A stretch of DNA of 25,270 nt from Myxococcota bacterium (lineage in GTDB: Bacteria > Myxococcota_C > UBA6777): the NCBI GenBank assembly GCA_023150835.1, contig JAKLKB010000103.1:1-25270 (forward strand). The letters are read 5' to 3'. A program made the position numbers and the translations under genes. Shown piece by piece: positions 8,453 to 25,010 of this stretch (position 1 is the first letter of the stretch; each line of letters opens with the position of its first letter). Below the pieces are notes generated by a model, which saw nothing but the letters and a program-made list of their open reading frames with translations, did no database searches and was not told where the DNA came from.

Positions 8453-11400
8453 TTAACGGCGTGAAGGCGGAGCGCAAGTGCCTGTGTTGTTGGTCCCGGG
8501 GGCGCAGTTTTCTTGCTTGGGAGCAGAGCGTGTCGGCGGAGGCGTCGTTGGTGCGGGGGCTTTCAACAAGTCCAGCGAAGGAACCAGTGAGCCGCTGGAG
8601 GGGGGAGCCTTGGTGGGGTCGTTGGTTTTGGCGGGTGTTGGCGCTTTCAACGCTGCTTCGATGGCCGCTTTGAGATCTTCGTAGGTGGGGGACTTGATGC
8701 GTGTGTTGTTGACAAAGAACGTGGGCGTTCCGCTGACGCCAAAGCGTTCGCCGATCTCCATGTCTTTGTCGACGGCTTCTTTGTAAACGCCCGCATCAAG
8801 GGATTGTTGGAGGTGCAAGACATTCATTCCGATCTCTTGAGCGTAGCGTTCGAGATCGGCGCGTTGGAGCTTGCTGTAGTTGGCGAAAAGTTTGTCGTGG
8901 TATTGCCAAAACTTCCCTTGTTCTTGGGCGACCATCGCTGCTTGCGAGGCAAGGTGGGCGTTTTTGTGGAAGCTCAGCGGATAGTGCTTAAACACAAAGC
9001 GCACACGATCTTTGTATTCTGTGGCGAGTTTTTGGAGTGTGAGCGCGGCTTTGGAACAGAAAGGACATTCAAAGTCGGAAAACTCGACCACCGTCACGCG
9101 GGCTTTTTCGGCTCCTTTCCATGCGGAGCCTTGGGTCGGGATGTTTGAAAAGTCAGGCAGTTCCGAGGCTTTGACGCCTTTGGCGAGCAGGATGTCGTTG
9201 AGCTTTTTGGCGATATCGCCAAAGCTCGCCCCTTGGGATGCCTCGTTGTTGACGTAGAACGAAGGGGTTCCACCCACACCAAAACGTCCGCCAAGGCTCA
9301 TATCTGCATCGACTTCTTCTTTGTAAAGGCCCGAATCAAGGGCTTTTCTGAATCTGTCCATGTCGAGGCCGATCTCTTGGGCATAGCGATCCAGATCGGT
9401 GCGCAAGAGATTGCGTTGGTTGGCAAAGAGTTTGTCGTGGTATTCCCAGAACTTGCCTTGGGCGTGAGCAGCGACGGAAGCTTGTGAGGCGAGGTGGGCG
9501 TTTTTGTGGAAGCTCAACGGGTAGTGTTTGAACACAAAGCGCACATAACGGCCATAGGTTTTTTCAAGTTGTTTGAGTGTATTGGCAGCCCGTGAGCAGT
9601 AAGGACACTCGAAGTCAGAGAACTCGACGACGGTTGCGAGGGGCTGTTTTGCGCCTTTCCAAGCGGAGTTTCGCAGCGGGATCTCGGTGGCCGAAGGAAG
9701 CTCGCTTGGGGGAACGCCTTTTTTCGAGAGGATATCGTTGAGGGTTTGGGAAAGCGCCTTGTAATCGACCCCTGTGGCTTTTTTGCCTTCGACAAAGAAG
9801 CTTGGTGTGCCGCTCACCCCGATGCGTGTGCCTTCTGCCATCTCAAGATCGACACGCCCTTTGTAGATCCCCGAATCAAGGGATTTTTTGAACTTGTCCA
9901 TATCGAGGCCGACCTCTTGGGCGTAACGTTCGAGATCAGCGCGCAAGAGATTGCGTTGGTTGGCAAAGAGTTTGTCGTGGTATTCCCAGAACTTGCCTTG
10001 TTCTTGGGCGGCGATAGAAGCCTGTGAGGCAAGGTGGGCATTTTTGTGGAAGCTCAGCGGATAGTGCTTGAAGACAAAGCGCACGTATTTTTTGTAATCC
10101 GCAGCCAAGGCGGAAAGAGTGTTTGCAGCCCGTGAACAATAAGGACACTCGAAGTCAGAGAACTCGACGACGGTTGCAAGAGGGGTTTCTGCGCCCTTCC
10201 AAGCGGAGTTTCCGAGGGTGATCTCTTCGCCGGGTTCTTCGGGGAGATCGGTTTTTTTGATGCCTTTTTGCAAAAGGATCGGATCGATGGCCTCTTTGAA
10301 AGCAGAAAAAGACAAGCCGCTGCTCAGTTTTTGACCGTTGATAAAGAAGGTGGGGGTTCCACGCACACCGATTTTGTTGCCTTGGCGGATATCTTCGTCC
10401 ACAAAGTTGCCAAGAGATACGGAGTCAAGGGCTTGGGTGAAGCTGTCCATATCCAGTTCGAGCGAGCGAGCATACGCAAGCAAAGACGGGCGTGTCAGGT
10501 TCTTTTGGCCGGCAAACAACAGATCGTGGTAGGCCCAAAACTTCCCTTGTTGGTGGGCGGCCATCGAGGCGGTCGCTGCGCCTTTGGCGGCAAAGTGAAA
10601 GCCGAGCGGATAATGCTTAAACACAACGCGTACTTTGTCTCCATAAGCACGTGCGACTTTTTTTACAGCCTGTGCGCCTTGGACGCAGTAGGGGCATTCA
10701 AAGTCGGAGAACTCAACGATCGTCACAGGAGCATCATCAGGCCCGAGGGTAGGGGCTTCTCCTACAGCGATCACTTGGGGCTTGTCGTCTTCGGCGTCGC
10801 GGGGGCGGGGTGGGGGAGCAGCTTCGCGCTGTTTGCCTTTTTCGATGATGGCGTTGTAGAGGGCATCTCCGCGTTGACCTTTGGCGATCTGAGGCTTGAG
10901 ACGTTCGAGTTCGTCATCGATCAGCCCTTTGACATCTTTGTCCGTGAGGGCGCTCGCGAGGCGTCCGTTGACGAAGGCGGTGGGGGTGCCTTGGACGCCC
11001 ACTTGTGCGCCGAGTTTCATGTCTTCGTCTACTTCGGATGCGTGGGTTTTTTTGTCGAGGGCTTCTTTGAACCGCGCCATATCAAGGCCGATCTCTCGGG
11101 CATAACGATCAAGGTGGCTGCGTTGGAGCTTGCGTTGGTTGGCGAACAGCTTGTCGTGGTATTGCCAAAACTTTCCTTGGCGCATCGCTTCGATCGAGGC
11201 TTGCGAGGCGAGATGCGCGTTTTTGTGAAAGCTGAGCGGAAAGTGCTTGAAAGCGTAGCGAACTTTTCCTTGGTATTGTTGGGCCAGCGTTTCAAGGGTT
11301 TTGGCTCCACGAGAGCAAAAAGGACATTCAAAGTCGGAGAACTCGACGATCGTGACGATCGCGTTTTTGTCGCCTTTTTGTGGAGAAGTTCCGAGGGGAA

Positions 11401-11572
11401 CTTTCCATATCTCGGGGTCTTTTGTGGCAAGATTGAACTTTTTTTCTTTGTATACATCTTGTAAAGAGCCGTAGGATGGGTTGCTTGCGCTTTTGGGCCC
11501 CCCCTCAATGTTGTAGGGATCCTTGCAACCCACAAGGAAAAGCGCCACAAACAAAAACCAACGAAGTTGCAT
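8453..11572 (-). CDS. Lipoprotein with five tandem DsbA-like thioredoxin domains
   Basis: A 1039-residue exported thiol-disulfide protein. The N-terminus MQLRWFLFVALFLVGC is a lipoprotein signal with lipidated Cys16, so it should be anchored facing the periplasm. Five DsbA/thioredoxin_4-type domains follow. Their CxxC pairs are at C83/C86 (CPFC), C293/C296 (CPYC), C476/C479 (CPYC), C656/C659 (CPYC) and C836/C839 (CPFC). Each has the FKHYPLSFHKNAHLASQA-type helix (diverged in domain 2), a GKFWxYHDxLFA segment and a cis-Pro GTP loop (near 196, 406, 589, 769, 949). Spacing is 210, then 183, 180 and 180 residues. A Pro/Thr-rich tail ends in two more cysteines (C1023, C1033). The start is ATG 11572, eight bases after GGAGG; the upstream frame to 11674 is spurious. 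Domains 3 and 4 are nearly identical over stretches of DNA, which suggests recent duplication or gene conversion. Confidence 0.92.
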   Translation of the reverse strand: MQLRWFLFVALFLVGCKDPYNIEGGPKSASNPSYGSLQDVYKEKKFNLATKDPEIWKVPLGTSPQKGDKNAIVTIVEFSDFECPFCSRGAKTLETLAQQYQGKVRYAFKHFPLSFHKNAHLASQASIEAMRQGKFWQYHDKLFANQRKLQRSHLDRYAREIGLDMARFKEALDKKTHASEVDEDMKLGAQVGVQGTPTAFVNGRLASALTDKDVKGLIDDELERLKPQIAKGQRGDALYNAIIEKGKQREAAPPPRPRDAEDDKPQVIAVGEAPTLGPDDAPVTIVEFSDFECPYCVQGAQAVKKVARAYGDKVRVVFKHYPLGFHFAAKGAATASMAAHQQGKFWAYHDLLFAGQKNLTRPSLLAYARSLELDMDSFTQALDSVSLGNFVDEDIRQGNKIGVRGTPTFFINGQKLSSGLSFSAFKEAIDPILLQKGIKKTDLPEEPGEEITLGNSAWKGAETPLATVVEFSDFECPYCSRAANTLSALAADYKKYVRFVFKHYPLSFHKNAHLASQASIAAQEQGKFWEYHDKLFANQRNLLRADLERYAQEVGLDMDKFKKSLDSGIYKGRVDLEMAEGTRIGVSGTPSFFVEGKKATGVDYKALSQTLNDILSKKGVPPSELPSATEIPLRNSAWKGAKQPLATVVEFSDFECPYCSRAANTLKQLEKTYGRYVRFVFKHYPLSFHKNAHLASQASVAAHAQGKFWEYHDKLFANQRNLLRTDLDRYAQEIGLDMDRFRKALDSGLYKEEVDADMSLGGRFGVGGTPSFYVNNEASQGASFGDIAKKLNDILLAKGVKASELPDFSNIPTQGSAWKGAEKARVTVVEFSDFECPFCSKAALTLQKLATEYKDRVRFVFKHYPLSFHKNAHLASQAAMVAQEQGKFWQYHDKLFANYSKLQRADLERYAQEIGMNVLHLQQSLDAGVYKEAVDKDMEIGERFGVSGTPTFFVNNTRIKSPTYEDLKAAIEAALKAPTPAKTNDPTKAPPSSGSLVPSLDLLKAPAPTTPPPTRSAPKQENCAPGTNNTGTCAPPSRR

Positions 11573-11806
11573 CAACAAAACCTCCATACCGCTTGGATAG
11601 AACAGGATGCGGGCGCACACGCCGCGTAGAGCAGAACAGACGGCAAATACGGGATGCGCGATCCTCGCGCCCAACGGCTGGCAAGATGCACGGATTTTCC
11701 CATCACGTCAAGCCATTCCACAGGTGCCACAACGCTGCGCTATCTCTCTTTTTCCCTTGTTTTTGCACGTTCTCTCTTTTTCCCTTGTTTTACAGGAGAA
11801 TCGACC
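11573..11806. promoter_or_regulatory. Divergent promoter region between the lipoprotein and the SbcD-like gene
   Basis: This 234-base region separates two divergent genes and should carry promoters for both. On the minus strand TTGACG (complement of 11706-11711) could be a -35 box, with CATCTT 17 bases on as a poor -10. A 21-base direct repeat (TCTCTCTTTTTCCCTTGTTT plus T) occurs at 11743-11763 and 11771-11791, ending just before the AGGAG site of the SbcD-like gene. Promoter calls are weak. Confidence 0.35.
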
Positions 11807-15450: not shown

Positions 15451-15631
15451 GATCAGCCCCTCCCATCTCACCGTCGATCCGTTGCGCATCAGCCTCTCTG
15501 GGGATGGATGCGATCCATTGCTCGCCTTGATTTGGAAAAGCCCTTGAATCGGGTGTTTTGGGCTCGGACAGAAGTGAAGCTGTTAACACGTTATGGGGCA
15601 AAGCAAACGCAACGAAATTGAGGAGTGTTCT

Positions 15632-18118
15632 ATGTTTTGGTTTCTCATCTTGGCGTGTATCGTTCTCGGATTCGCCGGCCTCTACTTTGCGTGGGGGCGC
15701 ACCCAATGGATTCAAAAGCAAGACGCAGGCAACGACCGTATGAAGGAGATCGCACAGCACATCTCCAGCGGCGCGATCGCCTTCCTTCGCCGTGAAGGCC
15801 AAGTCTTGATGCTTTTTGTTTTGGTGGTCTTCTTGATCCTGTTTTGGGCCAACTATGGCGGTGGAAACACCAGCGGTTGGGTCGCCGTCTCTTTCTTGGT
15901 CGGTGCAGCCTTGTCCTTTGGCTCAGGATTCGCCGGGATGACCGTTGCCACCAAAGCCAACGTCCGCACCACCGCAGCCGCTCGTGAAAGCCTCAACAAA
16001 GCCCTCGAAGTCGCTTTTTCGGGTGGTTCCGTGATGGGGATGACGGTGGCAGGGTTGGGCCTCGTCGGAATCAGCGTTCTGATGGGATTTTTTGCATTGA
16101 ACTTTGATTATCAAAGCGCCAACGGGATGCAGTTGCTGCTTTCGGTGGTTTCGGGCTTTTCGCTGGGTGCTTCTTCGATCGCGTTGTTTGCTCGTGTCGG
16201 TGGTGGGATCTACACCAAAGCCGCTGACGTTGGTGCAGACCTTGTCGGTAAAGTTGAAGCAGGCATCCCCGAAGACGATCCCCGTAACCCCGCTGTGATC
16301 GCCGATAACGTTGGTGACAACGTCGGTGACGTCGCAGGGATGGGCGCTGACCTGTTTGAATCCTATGTCGGCGCGATCATCGGTGCGATGGTTCTCGCTG
16401 CGGCCATTACCATCCCCGGCAACAAAAGCGACCGCGTCGTCTTGTACCCTGTCCTTTTGCCCCTCGCCATCGCAGCCGTCGGTATTTTGATGTCGATCGG
16501 TGGAACCCGCTTTGTCAAAACCACCGAAGACGGAAACCCCCAATGGGCCTTGACTCTTGGAACGCTTGTGGCCGCCGTCAGTACGGGTGTTGGAACCGCT
16601 GTTTTGTGTTGGTTCTTGCCTGCAAAAATGACCCTGATGGGCGTTGATTTCACCCGATGGGGCGTGTTTTTCGCTGTCGTCGCTGGCCTTGTCGCAGGAG
16701 CTGCCATCGGCTTCCTCTCCGAACTCTACACTTCCTTCGATCACAAACCCGTGAAGAAGATCGCCAAACAGTCCGAAACAGGCCCCGCCACCAACATCAT
16801 CTCCGGCCTCTCGGTGGGTATGCAGTCGACCGCTGCACCTGTGATCGTGATCGTGATCGCCATCGTCGTTTCTTACCAATCTGCCGGCCTCTACGGTATC
16901 GCTATCGCTGCTCTCGGGATGCTTTCTACCACAGGCATCCAACTTGCCGTCGATGCGTACGGACCCATCGCTGATAACGCCGGTGGGATCGCTGAAATGG
17001 CTGCACTCCCCCACGAAGTTCGGGAGCGTACCGATAAGTTGGACGCTGTTGGAAATACCACCGCAGCCATCGGAAAAGGCTTTGCCATCGGTTCGGCTGC
17101 TTTGACTGCCCTTGCGCTGTTTGCGGCATTCCGCTCGGTAGTCGAACAATCTACCGGCGTACCTTTGAAACTTGATATCTCGGATACTGCTGTCATGGCA
17201 GGTCTCTTTCTCGGTGGGATGTTGCCCTTCCTCTTCTCCTCCCTTGCGATGGATGCTGTCGGCGAAGCTGCACAATCCATGATCGAAGAAGTCCGCCGCC
17301 AGTTCCGCGAGATCCCCGGCCTCAAAGAAGGTAAGCCCGGTGTGGTTGGTGAATACGCCAAATGCGTCGATATCTCCACACAAGCCTCGATTCGCAAGAT
17401 GGTTCTTCCCGGTCTTCTCGCCGTGATCGCGCCTGTCGTCGTCGGACTTTGGAGCTTGGCTGCCCTTGGTGGCCTTCTTGCGGGCGTCACCGTCTCGGGC
17501 GTCTTGATGGCGCTCTTTATGTCCAACGCTGGTGGCGCTTGGGACAACGCGAAAAAGTATATCGAGAAAGGCGCGCATGGTGGAAAAGGCTCCGATGCCC
17601 ATAAAGCCGCAGTCACGGGAGATACCGTCGGTGACCCCTTCAAAGATACCGCTGGACCCGCCCTCAACATCTTGATCAAGTTGATCAGCGTGATCGCCCT
17701 TGTTGCGGCCCCCGCCCTCGCGAAACTCCATGTTGACGCAAACCCCAAAACACCCGCTCCTGCGAAACGCGCAGAAGTGAAACCCACAACCCCCGCAAAG
17801 GCCGCACAACCCACCCTGCGCACTTCTGTCCCCGCACCTGTTCGCCCTGTGGTGGCTCCCGCGCCTGTGCGTCCCGTGGTTGCTCCCGCTCCCGCGCCTG
17901 TGCGTCCCGTGGTTGCTCCCGCTCCCGCGCCTGTGCGTCCCGTGGTTGCTCCCGCTCCCGCGCCTGTGCGTCCCGTGGTTGCTCCCGCTCCCGCGCCTGT
18001 TCGCCCTGTCGTCGCTCCTACACCTGCGCCTGTTCGCCCTGTCGTCGCTCCCACACCCGCCCCTGTGCGCCCTGTGGCTGCGCCCTCTAGCCAACCCGCC
18101 ATCCCGCCCAAGAAATAA
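15632..18118 (+). CDS. hppA: Membrane-bound ion-pumping pyrophosphatase, K+-dependent type, with repetitive tail
   Basis: 828 residues. The first ~700 are a normal membrane pyrophosphatase, which couples PPi hydrolysis to pumping H+ or Na+ out of the cytoplasm. The substrate-binding signatures are present: [19 protein letters not shown], then [20 protein letters not shown] near 224-243. [10 protein letters not shown] starts at G474; Ala478 and Gly481 there mark the K+-dependent class, whereas the K+-independent class has Lys and Thr. Whether it pumps H+ or Na+ cannot be told by eye. The start is ATG 15632, six bases after AGGAG; the frame opens earlier at 15593 without support. The last ~125 residues are a Pro/Ala/Val-rich tail with [11 protein letters not shown] repeats, which is not part of the family. 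Confidence 0.95.
17840..18090 (+). repeat. 33-bp tandem repeat encoding [11 protein letters not shown], 3' end of hppA
   Basis: Eight VRPV units occur in a row. The first has nine residues, the next four read [11 protein letters not shown], two read [11 protein letters not shown], and the last reads VRPVAAPSS. Several copies are identical in DNA. The 33-base unit keeps the frame when the copy number changes. Confidence 0.93.
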
Positions 18119-19603: not shown

Positions 19604-21475
19604 ATGCAACGACGCGGCAATGCCACCGATCCCCGCGACAAAGAAGCCTCTCTTGCCGAACTTCAGCGCCGAGTCCCTCCCCAAAATATCGAGGCCGAAC
19701 GCGCTGTTCTCGGCTCCATCATGTTGTTTAGCGAACTTCTTCACAGCATCCTTGGTGTTCTCAAAGCCAAAGACTTTTATCTCGAACGCCATCAGTGGAT
19801 CTTTGAAGCCATCCTCGAACAAGAATCCGAGAACCTTCCCCTCGATATCATCTCTGTCGCCAACCGTCTCAAGAGCAACGGGCACCTCGAAAAGCTCGGT
19901 GGGATCGCTTATCTTGGCGAACTCGTCGATATGATCCCCTCCGCCGCACACATCGAACACTACGCCAAGATCATCCACGACAAGTCCATCCTTCGTCAGA
20001 TTATCACTGTCTGCACCGAGATCGCCAGCGAAGCCTACGAAGAACTCGAACAAGTCGACCTCTTTCTCGATAGCGCCGAAAAACGCTTCTTCGAGATCCG
20101 TCAAGAAGGCCAAAACAAAGATATCGCCCCCGTCAGCGAGATCGTGAAAAATGCCTTTGCCACCATCGAAAAACTCTACGGGCGAAAAGAACTCGTCACG
20201 GGTGTCCCCACCGGCTTCGAAGAATTCGACAAGCTAACCTCTGGTCTCCAACCCACCGACTTGATCATCCTCGCTGGACGCCCTGCGATGGGCAAAACCA
20301 GCCTCGCCATGAACATGGTCGCCAACGCCTCCATCCACCACAAAGTTCCCGTTGTTGTCTTCTCTCTTGAAATGAGCAAAGAACAACTCGTCATGCGGAT
20401 GCTTTGTTCCGAAGGCCGTGTTGACGCTTCTCGCCTTCGCACCGGCAATATGAAAGACACGGATATCCCCCGACTTATGCAGGCCGCCACCGAACTCGCT
20501 CGATCCAAGATCTTTATCGACGACAGCGCAAACTCTAGCCTCCTTGAGATGCGCTCCAAATGCCGACGCCTCAAAATGGAACACGGACTCGGCATGATCA
20601 TGATCGATTATCTTCAGCTTATGAAAGGTGGCGATCAAGGCGGTGACTCCCGTGAACGCGAGATATCCGACATCTCTCGCGGACTCAAAGCCCTCGCCAA
20701 AGAACTCCACGTCCCCGTCATCGCTCTCTCTCAGCTCAATCGCTCTCTTGAACGGCGGCCCGACAAACGCCCCATGCCTTCGGACCTTCGCGAATGCGTT
20801 GCTGGAGACACTCACGTCGCCCTCGCAGATGGCCGCCAAGTCCCGATCCGGGATCTCGTTGGGCAATCCCCTCTCGTTCTTGCGATCTCCAAAGAAGGGA
20901 AAGTCGTGGAGGCACAAAGCGATGTGGTTTGGTGTGTTGGAAAACGCCCCCTTTTTGAAATCGAACTCGCTTCTGGGCGCACCATCCAAGCAACCGCCGA
21001 GCACCGTTTTCTTTCCGCAAAAGGATGGGTGTGTACGCACCAACTTCATCCCGAAGATCGCATCGGCATCGTTCGGCAACTTCCCTCCCCTCCAACGCGC
21101 CGAATCCTTAAAGAACACGCAGAGATTCTTGACAACCAAGAGATCCGTGACCCAGCGCAAAGTGATATCTTTTGGGATAAGGTTGTTCGCGTCTTGGCTT
21201 TACCAGAAGAGCAAGACGTTTTCGATCTGAGCGTACCGTCTGCGTCTTCATGGATCGGAAACGATATTTTCTTACATAACTCTGGAGCTCTTGAGCAGGA
21301 CGCCGACATGATCGTCTTTGTTTATCGCGACGAAGTCTATAATCCTGAAACCGAAGATCGCGGTATCGCCGAGATCATCATCGGTAAACAACGCAACGGA
21401 CCCACCGGAACCGCCCGCGTTCGCTTCTTCCACGAATACACCAAGTTCGAGAACCTCTTCCCCGATCAACCTTGA
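19604..21475 (+). CDS. dnaB: Replicative DNA helicase DnaB, interrupted by an intein
   Basis: 623 residues as translated, about 461 after splicing. DnaB is the hexameric 5'-3' helicase that opens the replication fork. The N-terminal domain (about 24-125; PPQNIEAERAVLGSIM) binds primase. The RecA-like domain begins near 195. It has Walker A GRPAMGKT (K231), FSLEMS after it, Walker B MIMIDYLQL, and ALSQLNRSLERRPDKRPMPS. The frame then enters an intein at Cys398 and returns at Ser560 with SGALEQDADMIVFVYRDEVY, the conserved DnaB end. The start ATG has AGGAG six bases upstream. The helicase is functional only if the intein splices. Confidence 0.96.
   Translation: MQRRGNATDPRDKEASLAELQRRVPPQNIEAERAVLGSIMLFSELLHSILGVLKAKDFYLERHQWIFEAILEQESENLPLDIISVANRLKSNGHLEKLGGIAYLGELVDMIPSAAHIEHYAKIIHDKSILRQIITVCTEIASEAYEELEQVDLFLDSAEKRFFEIRQEGQNKDIAPVSEIVKNAFATIEKLYGRKELVTGVPTGFEEFDKLTSGLQPTDLIILAGRPAMGKTSLAMNMVANASIHHKVPVVVFSLEMSKEQLVMRMLCSEGRVDASRLRTGNMKDTDIPRLMQAATELARSKIFIDDSANSSLLEMRSKCRRLKMEHGLGMIMIDYLQLMKGGDQGGDSREREISDISRGLKALAKELHVPVIALSQLNRSLERRPDKRPMPSDLRECVAGDTHVALADGRQVPIRDLVGQSPLVLAISKEGKVVEAQSDVVWCVGKRPLFEIELASGRTIQATAEHRFLSAKGWVCTHQLHPEDRIGIVRQLPSPPTRRILKEHAEILDNQEIRDPAQSDIFWDKVVRVLALPEEQDVFDLSVPSASSWIGNDIFLHNSGALEQDADMIVFVYRDEVYNPETEDRGIAEIIIGKQRNGPTGTARVRFFHEYTKFENLFPDQP
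20795..21280 (+). other. Mini-intein in DnaB (Hint domain, no homing endonuclease)
   Basis: 162 residues, C398 to N559. Block A is CVAGDTHVALADG with Cys1. Block B is GRTIQATAEHRF with the Thr and His of TxxH. Block F is DVFDLSVPSASSWIGNDIFL. Block G is LHN followed by Ser+1. All splicing residues are present (Cys1, block B His, penultimate His, last Asn, Ser+1). About 70 residues separate blocks B and F, too short for a LAGLIDADG endonuclease. As I recall it, the sequence resembles the Synechocystis DnaB intein, including the QSDIFWDKVV stretch against QSDIYWDSIV. Insertion is at DLRE^SG. Codons near the end (TTA) look less like the host's. Confidence 0.94.
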
Positions 21476-22729: not shown

Positions 22730-24892
22730 TTAAGCGGAGAAGGCGATGGCAAGGGCTTCTTGGTGGGCTTGGAGAGTGTGTTGAATGTCGTCGTGGGTGT
22801 GGGACGCGGAGACGAAGAAGGCTTCGAACTGGGCGGCGGGAAGGTAGACACCGCGTTCGAGCATCGCGTGGAAGTAGCGTGCAAAGGCGGCGGTATCGCA
22901 ATGACGGGCTTCGGTGTAGTTGCGAACGGGGGTTTGGCAGAAGAATAGGCAGAGCATCGAGCCGTAGCGCGTAAGGTAGAGATCGCGTCCAACGGCGGAA
23001 AGTCCCGCACGAAGGCCGTCTTCGAGTTGCTTGCAGGTCTCTTCGAGGCGGGCATACAGGGCGGGGGTGAGGTGTTCGAGGGTGGCGAGTCCCGCAGCGG
23101 TGGCAAGGGGATTTCCAGAGAGCGTGCCGGCTTGGTATACGGGGCCGACGGGGGCGACTTGTTGCATCAGATCAGCGCGCCCACCATAAGCGCCGACAGG
23201 AAGGCCGCCACCGATGATCTTGCCGAGCGTGATCAGGTCAGGTTTGATGCCGAAAAGCTCCGTCACACCGCCTGCAGCGACGCGAAATCCTGTCATCACT
23301 TCGTCGAAGATCAGCAACGCACCATGACGCGAGGTGATCTCGCGCAGACCTTCGAGGAATCCGGGTTCGGGTCGGATCAGTCCCATATTTCCCGGGATAG
23401 GTTCGATGATGATCGCGGCGATGGAGTCGGGATATTCGGAAAAGAGGCGCTCGATGCCTGTGAGGTCGTTGTATTCGGCGAGCAGGGTATCCGCAGCGGT
23501 TCCTGCGGTGACACCCGGGCTATTGGGGACGCCAAAGGTGGTGGCACCCGAACCCGCCGCGATCAAGAACGAGTCGCCGTGTCCGTGATAACAACCCGAG
23601 AACTTGATCAGACGGTCGCGTTTCGTCGCGGCACGAGCAAGGCGGATCGCACTCATGGTGGCTTCGGTTCCCGAACTGACGAGGCGCACCATCTCCATGC
23701 TCGGAAAGAAGTCGCGGATCTTTTCAGCCATCAAGACTTCGCGGACGGTGGGCGCGCCGTAGCTTGTTCCGTCGGCAGCAGCGGCTTGGATGGCAGCAAC
23801 GACTTCGGGATGGGCGTGACCAAGGATCATCGGCCCCCACGATCCGACATAATCGATGTATCGGTTTCCGTCTTCGTCCCAAAGATAGGCACCTTGGGCG
23901 CGTCGGATCATCGGAGGGGTTCCACCCACCGCTCGAAAAGCCCGAACTGGCGAGTTGACGCCTCCCGGCATGATGTGGCGTGCGCGTTCTATCCACGCTT
24001 GGCTTTGTTTGAATGATATCGGCATGAATGAGACTCCTTCTTTATTTTCGTCGATAGGACTTATGCGATTGGGTTTGTGTTCTTTGTGGAGCGCATCGCG
24101 CACAGCTTCGCCATAGGCGCGCATGGAAGGCTGTGGAGAAACCACCCAAGGCGAGAGCCCCCGTTGTTCGAGGGCCGCCGCTGTTGTGGGGCCGATGGCC
24201 GCAAAACGCAGGTCTTTGGGGAGGTCGTGTGGCTCAAGTTCCAGATCCGTCAACAGCGCATCAAGTTGCGACGGGCTGTTGAGCGCCACCCTAACGATCT
24301 CGCCGCACAAAAGCAACGAGCGCAGCGTGGGCGGCAAGGCCACAGGGACGATGGTGTAGACGGCAAGGCGTATGACGGTGGCTCCTAGCGCAGAAAGGCC
24401 GAACGGAAGGGTGTCTCGGGCTTCGCTAGAACCTGCGAACAAGTAGCGTTTGTTGTGTTGAGGGCCTTGTTGGGCGATCGCGGCGAGCAGGCCGTTGGCG
24501 TCTTGGGTCGCAGGGATCAAGGCAGGAGAAAGGCCCAAAGCCGCACAAGCACGAGCCGTTTCTTGACCTACGCAGTACAAACGCTCGGACAATAGGCGCT
24601 TGGCGGTGGCCTCTTCGTAAAGCCCCGTCGCTTCGCAGCTTTGCAACAAGGGCTTGAGAAAAGAGCGAACACTTTCGGCGCTGGTGATCAAATAACCATC
24701 GTACTGTTCGAGAGCTTGTGCGTAGGTGCGCCACTCGGAAGAAGACAGCAGCGGATGGATATCCAACACAGGGGCCGCAACAACGGAGATCTCGGCTTGT
24801 TCGAGAACAGCGCAAAACTCTTCGCATCGTTTGCGTTCGCGTGTGATCAAAACAGTCGGGAAACGAGCAGAAGAACGCGGGTTGTGTTGCAT
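22730..24892 (-). CDS. hemL: HemD-HemL fusion: uroporphyrinogen-III synthase joined to glutamate-1-semialdehyde aminomutase
   Basis: A 720-residue continuous frame with two heme-pathway enzymes. Residues 1-270 resemble HemD, which closes the tetrapyrrole ring: VLITRERKRCEEF at the start, LITSAESVRSFL, AVYTIVP, and AAIGPTTAAALEQRGLSPWV near 231-250. Residues 290-720 are HemL, the PLP enzyme that makes 5-aminolevulinate from glutamate-1-semialdehyde: SSGTEATMSAIRLAR, YHGHGDS, DEVMTGFR, and the PLP lysine K558 in TLGKIIGGG. HemL is full length by itself (431 residues). An AAGGAG lies eight bases before the ATG at 24025, so HemL may also be made separately. The fusion start at 24892 has only a distant GAGG. 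Confidence 0.9.
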   Translation of the reverse strand: MQHNPRSSARFPTVLITRERKRCEEFCAVLEQAEISVVAAPVLDIHPLLSSSEWRTYAQALEQYDGYLITSAESVRSFLKPLLQSCEATGLYEEATAKRLLSERLYCVGQETARACAALGLSPALIPATQDANGLLAAIAQQGPQHNKRYLFAGSSEARDTLPFGLSALGATVIRLAVYTIVPVALPPTLRSLLLCGEIVRVALNSPSQLDALLTDLELEPHDLPKDLRFAAIGPTTAAALEQRGLSPWVVSPQPSMRAYGEAVRDALHKEHKPNRISPIDENKEGVSFMPISFKQSQAWIERARHIMPGGVNSPVRAFRAVGGTPPMIRRAQGAYLWDEDGNRYIDYVGSWGPMILGHAHPEVVAAIQAAAADGTSYGAPTVREVLMAEKIRDFFPSMEMVRLVSSGTEATMSAIRLARAATKRDRLIKFSGCYHGHGDSFLIAAGSGATTFGVPNSPGVTAGTAADTLLAEYNDLTGIERLFSEYPDSIAAIIIEPIPGNMGLIRPEPGFLEGLREITSRHGALLIFDEVMTGFRVAAGGVTELFGIKPDLITLGKIIGGGLPVGAYGGRADLMQQVAPVGPVYQAGTLSGNPLATAAGLATLEHLTPALYARLEETCKQLEDGLRAGLSAVGRDLYLTRYGSMLCLFFCQTPVRNYTEARHCDTAAFARYFHAMLERGVYLPAAQFEAFFVSASHTHDDIQHTLQAHQEALAIAFSA
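24023..24039 (-). promoter_or_regulatory. Internal ribosome site and start codon for HemL
   Basis: On the minus strand AAGGAG (complement of 24034-24039) is followed after eight bases by ATG (24025-24023). This is exactly where a normal HemL begins (MPISFKQSQAWIERA). No stop codon separates it from the HemD part, so translation could both read through and start anew. Confidence 0.7.
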
Positions 24893-24920
24893 CGGTGGGT
24901 CGTTGCCTCATTGTGTTCAG

Positions 24921-25010
24921 ATGATTCCGATGATTCCGATGATTCCGATGATTCCGATGGCTCTGATGGCTCTGATGATTCCGATGGTTCCGATGATTCC
25001 GATGGTTCGC
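24921..25010 (+). repeat. 9-bp tandem repeat (ATGATTCCG), ten units
   Basis: Ten 9-base units follow each other: six read ATGATTCCG and four are variants (ATGGCTCTG twice, ATGGTTCCG, ATGGTTCGC). The array ends about 28 bases upstream of the HemD start codon, so it probably lies in the promoter or leader of that gene. There are no spacers, so it is not a CRISPR array. Confidence 0.95.

Follow-up and report, generated by a model that had tools for sequence, protein, structure and literature searches.

Fusions among the enzymes of early tetrapyrrole synthesis are a known kind of event. A survey of gene fusions in SEED described CobA-HemD and HemC-HemD proteins (PMC4921024), and an archaeal survey found that the early HemABLCD enzymes commonly undergo fusion and fission, one example being a HemA-HemB fusion present in a single Sulfolobus assembly (PMC11237513). 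The locus described here resembles CobA-HemD and HemC-HemD in that HemD stands in frame with another enzyme of the tetrapyrrole pathway. However, those two fusions join enzymes of consecutive steps, surveyed as neighbours with a common intermediate, whereas the partner of HemD in our locus is HemL, which acts several steps earlier; moreover, in contrast to CobA-HemD and HemC-HemD, the HemD-HemL arrangement was found in one genome only. What is new, then, is the particular HemD-HemL pair, and a literature search covering few subscription journals returned no report of a fusion between these two enzymes.

HemD and HemL occupy a single stop-free frame

The window, by which we mean the whole stretch of 25,270 nucleotides that was analysed, was described in an earlier note as carrying HemD fused to HemL in one frame without a stop. 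We found this to hold, with both the Pfam and the NCBIfam domains intact, once the strand is supplied that the description had left out: the frame lies on the minus strand (Table 1), where its 2163 nt contain neither an internal stop nor an ambiguous base, and a plus-strand reading of the same interval meets several stops. The HemD part matched the HEM4 profile with 136.9 bits (cut-off 27.5) over positions 4-228 of 231, which makes it a full-length domain, and it aligned to PDB 1jr2 at E 6.6e-10, a match that is weaker than the structure match of HemL but clear. For the HemL part, the TIGR00713 hemL model scored 596.9 bits against an equivalog cut-off of 527.3 across fusion residues 299-714 (profile 4-420 of 423), the Pfam aminotransferase class III domain was located at residues 327-686 in the part named hemL by NCBIfam, and solved glutamate-1-semialdehyde aminomutases were matched over their full length (2gsa, E 9.4e-155). 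The TLGKIIGGG motif has kept its lysine, which we take to be the PLP-binding residue; this lysine is residue 558 of the fusion and aligns with index 272 of chain 2gsa_A.

The source genome, which is 93% complete, gave a single PF02602 match, namely that in the fused frame, and so contains no second HemD; likewise, the fused frame holds the sole TIGR00713 match over the cut-off, the other class III aminotransferases of this genome being distant. Neither domain is truncated, and the genome has no other full member of either family, so that the HemD-HemL match cannot be attributed to chance.

Table 1. Positions of the fused hemD-hemL frame, its parts and the Met8-HemL frames used for comparison (window coordinates unless a locus is named)
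Feature	Position	Strand	Description
hemD-hemL single open reading frame	22730..24892	minus	720 sense codons plus TAA; ATG at 24892, TAA at 22732-22730
HemD (uroporphyrinogen-III synthase) domain	24116..24814	minus	fusion residues 27-259; Pfam PF02602 (HEM4)
Codon 282	24047..24049	minus	GAA in the window, TAA (hemD stop) in G001; from the codon alignment
Shine-Dalgarno sequence AAGGAG of hemL	24034..24039	minus	coding nt 854-859, within the fused frame; identical in G001
hemL ATG (codon 290)	24023..24025	minus	the hemL start in unfused G001
HemL (glutamate-1-semialdehyde 2,1-aminomutase), 431 aa	22733..24025	minus	TIGR00713 over cut-off; PDB 2gsa
Met8-HemL frame	L026:3359-5302		
Met8-HemL frame	L132:5830-7758	minus	
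Met8-HemL frame	L133:4745-6688		

The start of hemL within the fused frame

The same note had pointed to a strong Shine-Dalgarno sequence and an ATG exactly at the HemL boundary, from which a free HemL of 431 residues would begin, and both features were confirmed on the sequence, AAGGAG being followed after 8 nt by the ATG of codon 290. We scanned the whole 2163-nt coding strand for Shine-Dalgarno-like hexamers and pentamers with an ATG at usable spacing and obtained this one site only; that it falls at the HemL boundary is therefore not a matter of chance. What had to be abandoned is the notion that this second start is built into a fusion gene, since it is instead the original ribosome-binding site and start of hemL, shared with the unfused sister genome G001.

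One base separates the fused frame from its unfused sister

The comparison within the phylum comprised five genomes of one family, these being the genome of the window (G000), a congeneric one (G001) and a further three (G002, G003 and G004). For the greater part of its length the window is collinear with G001, the majority of blocks having about 91-93% DNA identity, and the two hemD-hemL regions align codon for codon over 720 codons with no indel and with 94% amino acid identity. In this alignment one T-to-G change, at position 24049, converts TAA to GAA and accounts for the fusion; the linker that flanks codon 282 is otherwise the same in G001, and so are the codons after it, AAT AAA GAA GGA GTC TCA TTC ATG, which include the ribosome-binding site and start of hemL. 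As to the suspicion that a stop might be hidden between residues 270 and 290, the window as sequenced has a sense codon at 282 and no stop in that interval, and in the sister a stop is found at that very codon.

The remaining genomes are unfused as well: in G004 hemD is closed by a TGA, after which hemL has a separate start in that frame, and in G003 and G002 hemD and hemL are adjacent on the same strand with stops between them. All four pairs are like the window in gene order, in orientation and in having the own start of hemL just after hemD, and all four are unlike it in that a stop codon ends hemD. Because this stop is present in all four, it is ancestral by parsimony, and because hemD and hemL share a reading frame and 24 nt, counting the stop, lie between the last hemD codon and the hemL ATG, a single base sufficed to join them. 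Adjacent in-frame genes with an aligned stop in the nearest relative, the pattern expected of fusion by stop loss, are what the TAA of G001 provides; conservation of the fusion across species was not seen, the arrangement being absent from G001 and from every other genome of the phylum examined. As judged from these alignments, the fusion is a derived state, consisting of one base in one assembly, and is not a conserved arrangement.

Between the window and G001, dN/dS was 0.22 for HemD and 0.06 for HemL, values that span the whole split from G001 and do not isolate the period after the fusion, and which place both parts under purifying selection between the species; the differences in the two regions fall mostly at third codon positions. 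As separate observations on this region, the hemL gene of G002 (L107, G002:C428) lacks about 26 residues, corresponding to fusion residues about 373-398, owing to a deletion or to a fault of the assembly; and just upstream of hemD in the window a tandem 9-mer, gattccgat, extends over about 24918-25010 and ends about 25 nt before the hemD ATG, the first bases of this repeat stretch being different in G001.

Substitution or sequence error

We conclude, at a probability of about 0.83, that an ancestral in-frame hemD-hemL pair was merged by a single T-to-G loss of the hemD stop, that the fusion and free HemL are both made, and that the merger is near-neutral. The alternative that survives best is a base-call or assembly error, whereby the organism truly has TAA at codon 282 and makes two ordinary, separate proteins. 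The whole difference from the sister amounts to one base, GAA is carried by one assembly only, this assembly is fragmented into 239 contigs, and the stop of the sister sits just where a hidden one had been feared, all of which would suit an error. However, we are dealing with a lone substitution, which does not lie in a long homopolymer, and a local control speaks for a clean contig: in the region shared with G001 the other stop codons compared, that of hemL included, were at the same position in 14 of 14 cases, and the proteins of the window that align to G001 showed no in-frame stop there apart from hemD-hemL. Since the contig looks clean in both respects, we regard an error as improbable and the T-to-G substitution as very probably real, a verdict reached by judgement rather than by computation. 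GAA might conceivably also be a minority strain variant within the 239-contig assembly.

HemL fusions in other genomes

The fusion had been supposed not to be common, and the searches that we carried out agree with this. Using the fusion as a query against 386 bacterial genomes spread across the domain, we found 178 in which a match of HemL type had an E value of at most 1e-130, divergent HemL genes below this threshold falling outside the result; among the best approximately 150 matches listed, none but the window had HemD and HemL joined without a stop, and no HemD-HemL frame was present at 80 further HemL loci taken from genomes of the GTDB collection. Some genomes have long frames, of up to 792 aa, upstream of HemL (for example G176, G141, G336, L065 and L076); these were considered as further fusions and rejected, as no HemD was detected in them by BLASTP. 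Those in the G-numbered genomes look like spurious open frames. A Pfam scan of six stretches upstream of HemL in the collection loci gave nothing in five and a Met8-like match in one (L026).

An uninterrupted frame joining Met8 (precorrin-2 dehydrogenase-like) to HemL turned out to be common to three related Thermoanaerobacter-like genomes, G386, G387 and G390, the first of which (G386, locus L026) bears the record title Thermoanaerobacter sp. A7A. In the two relatives of L026 the frame is 91-94% identical, the range across the three species being 91-100%, and at the HemL boundary of L026 we read an SD-like AGAGG together with a GTG. Met8-HemL is thus like the window in that HemL follows another tetrapyrrole gene as the C-terminal partner and an SD-like site and a start, here GTG, are kept; it is unlike the window in having a different partner, in being common to three species and in the absence of a spacer that close relatives possess. 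In other relatives of L026 met8 and hemL are separate, several having some 740-790 nt between them, and since this spacer is missing from the joined frame, Met8-HemL may have arisen by deletion rather than by a point change. Going by the frames themselves, the addition of an N-terminal partner to HemL has an independent parallel in Met8-HemL.

Predicted products and significance of the merger

Under stop loss, ribosomes initiating at hemD would read through into hemL and yield a predicted HemD-HemL protein of 720 aa, and those initiating at the retained Shine-Dalgarno-ATG site would yield the ordinary HemL of 431 aa, just as they would in the unfused relatives. From the arrangement of the frame it is plausible that the fusion and free HemL are both made, and most likely free HemL is still produced from its own start and HemD bears a HemL tail. 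HemD would now exist only in this tailed form, so that its activity would come from the fusion alone, and both forms would supply HemL activity; the two folds would function independently, joined by a linker of about 25-30 residues. HemL is a homodimeric enzyme and HemD a monomeric one, so the fusion could form a dimer that bears two HemD modules. The stop-loss change was most likely neutral or nearly so, and the simplest reading is probably a tolerated, near-neutral merger which creates no new kind of enzyme. By comparison, we consider it unlikely that the locus is a young, real fusion whose one message gives the predicted bifunctional 720-aa protein and the free 431-aa HemL and thereby couples the amounts of early and later tetrapyrrole enzymes.

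Far less credible is a selected bifunctional enzyme, in which HemD and HemL are kept joined so that the first steps of the pathway are matched to the formation of uroporphyrinogen III and the dual output is deliberate. Such an enzyme would be in keeping with the intact domains and internal start and with the other early tetrapyrrole fusions on record, CobA-HemD and HemC-HemD (PMC4921024), HemA-HemB (PMC11237513) and the Met8-HemL frames above; but the internal start is ancestral and no addition, the arrangement is missing from the sister G001 and the other relatives, and the intermediates handled by HemL and HemD are not consecutive. The product of HemL is 5-aminolevulinate, and ring closure by HemD follows three steps on, after HemB and HemC have acted, so that one would not expect channelling from one fused partner to the other. 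That the fusion is harmful or inert, HemD function being partly lost in the lineage and free HemL sustaining the first steps, can hardly be entertained, for although HemD is less constrained than HemL by dN/dS, HemD families evolve fast in general, the HemD domain far exceeds its profile cut-off with no indel against G001, and the genome has no second HemD.

If the stop loss is real, the locus offers a clean natural gene fusion by one point mutation, with the unfused sister as its before state and with the old internal start kept. The lesson that we draw from it is that a frame of this sort calls for comparison with a sister genome before it is declared to encode a bifunctional enzyme; our knowledge of tetrapyrrole synthesis is left unchanged by the HemD-HemL fusion.

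Other features of the window

Elsewhere in the window, a DnaB helicase encoded at 19604-21475 (plus strand) contains a mini-intein of about 150 aa (CVAGDT...FLHN before S). At the identical site its counterpart in G001 (L106, C346:18288-20942) holds this intein in a form longer by about 261 aa, and the extra sequence resembles a LAGLIDADG endonuclease; the two inteins make up a natural pair of mini and full-length forms in sister species. At 8453-11674 (minus strand) the window encodes a protein of 1073 aa, which is 96% identical in G001 and, from its repeated FSDFECP[FY]C motifs, apparently holds about five tandem DsbA/thioredoxin-like domains. Finally, the frame at 15593-18118 (plus strand) reads as a putative membrane H+-pyrophosphatase whose C-terminal tail is unusual in repeating the unit APVRPVVAP, and its G001 counterpart has 96% identity.
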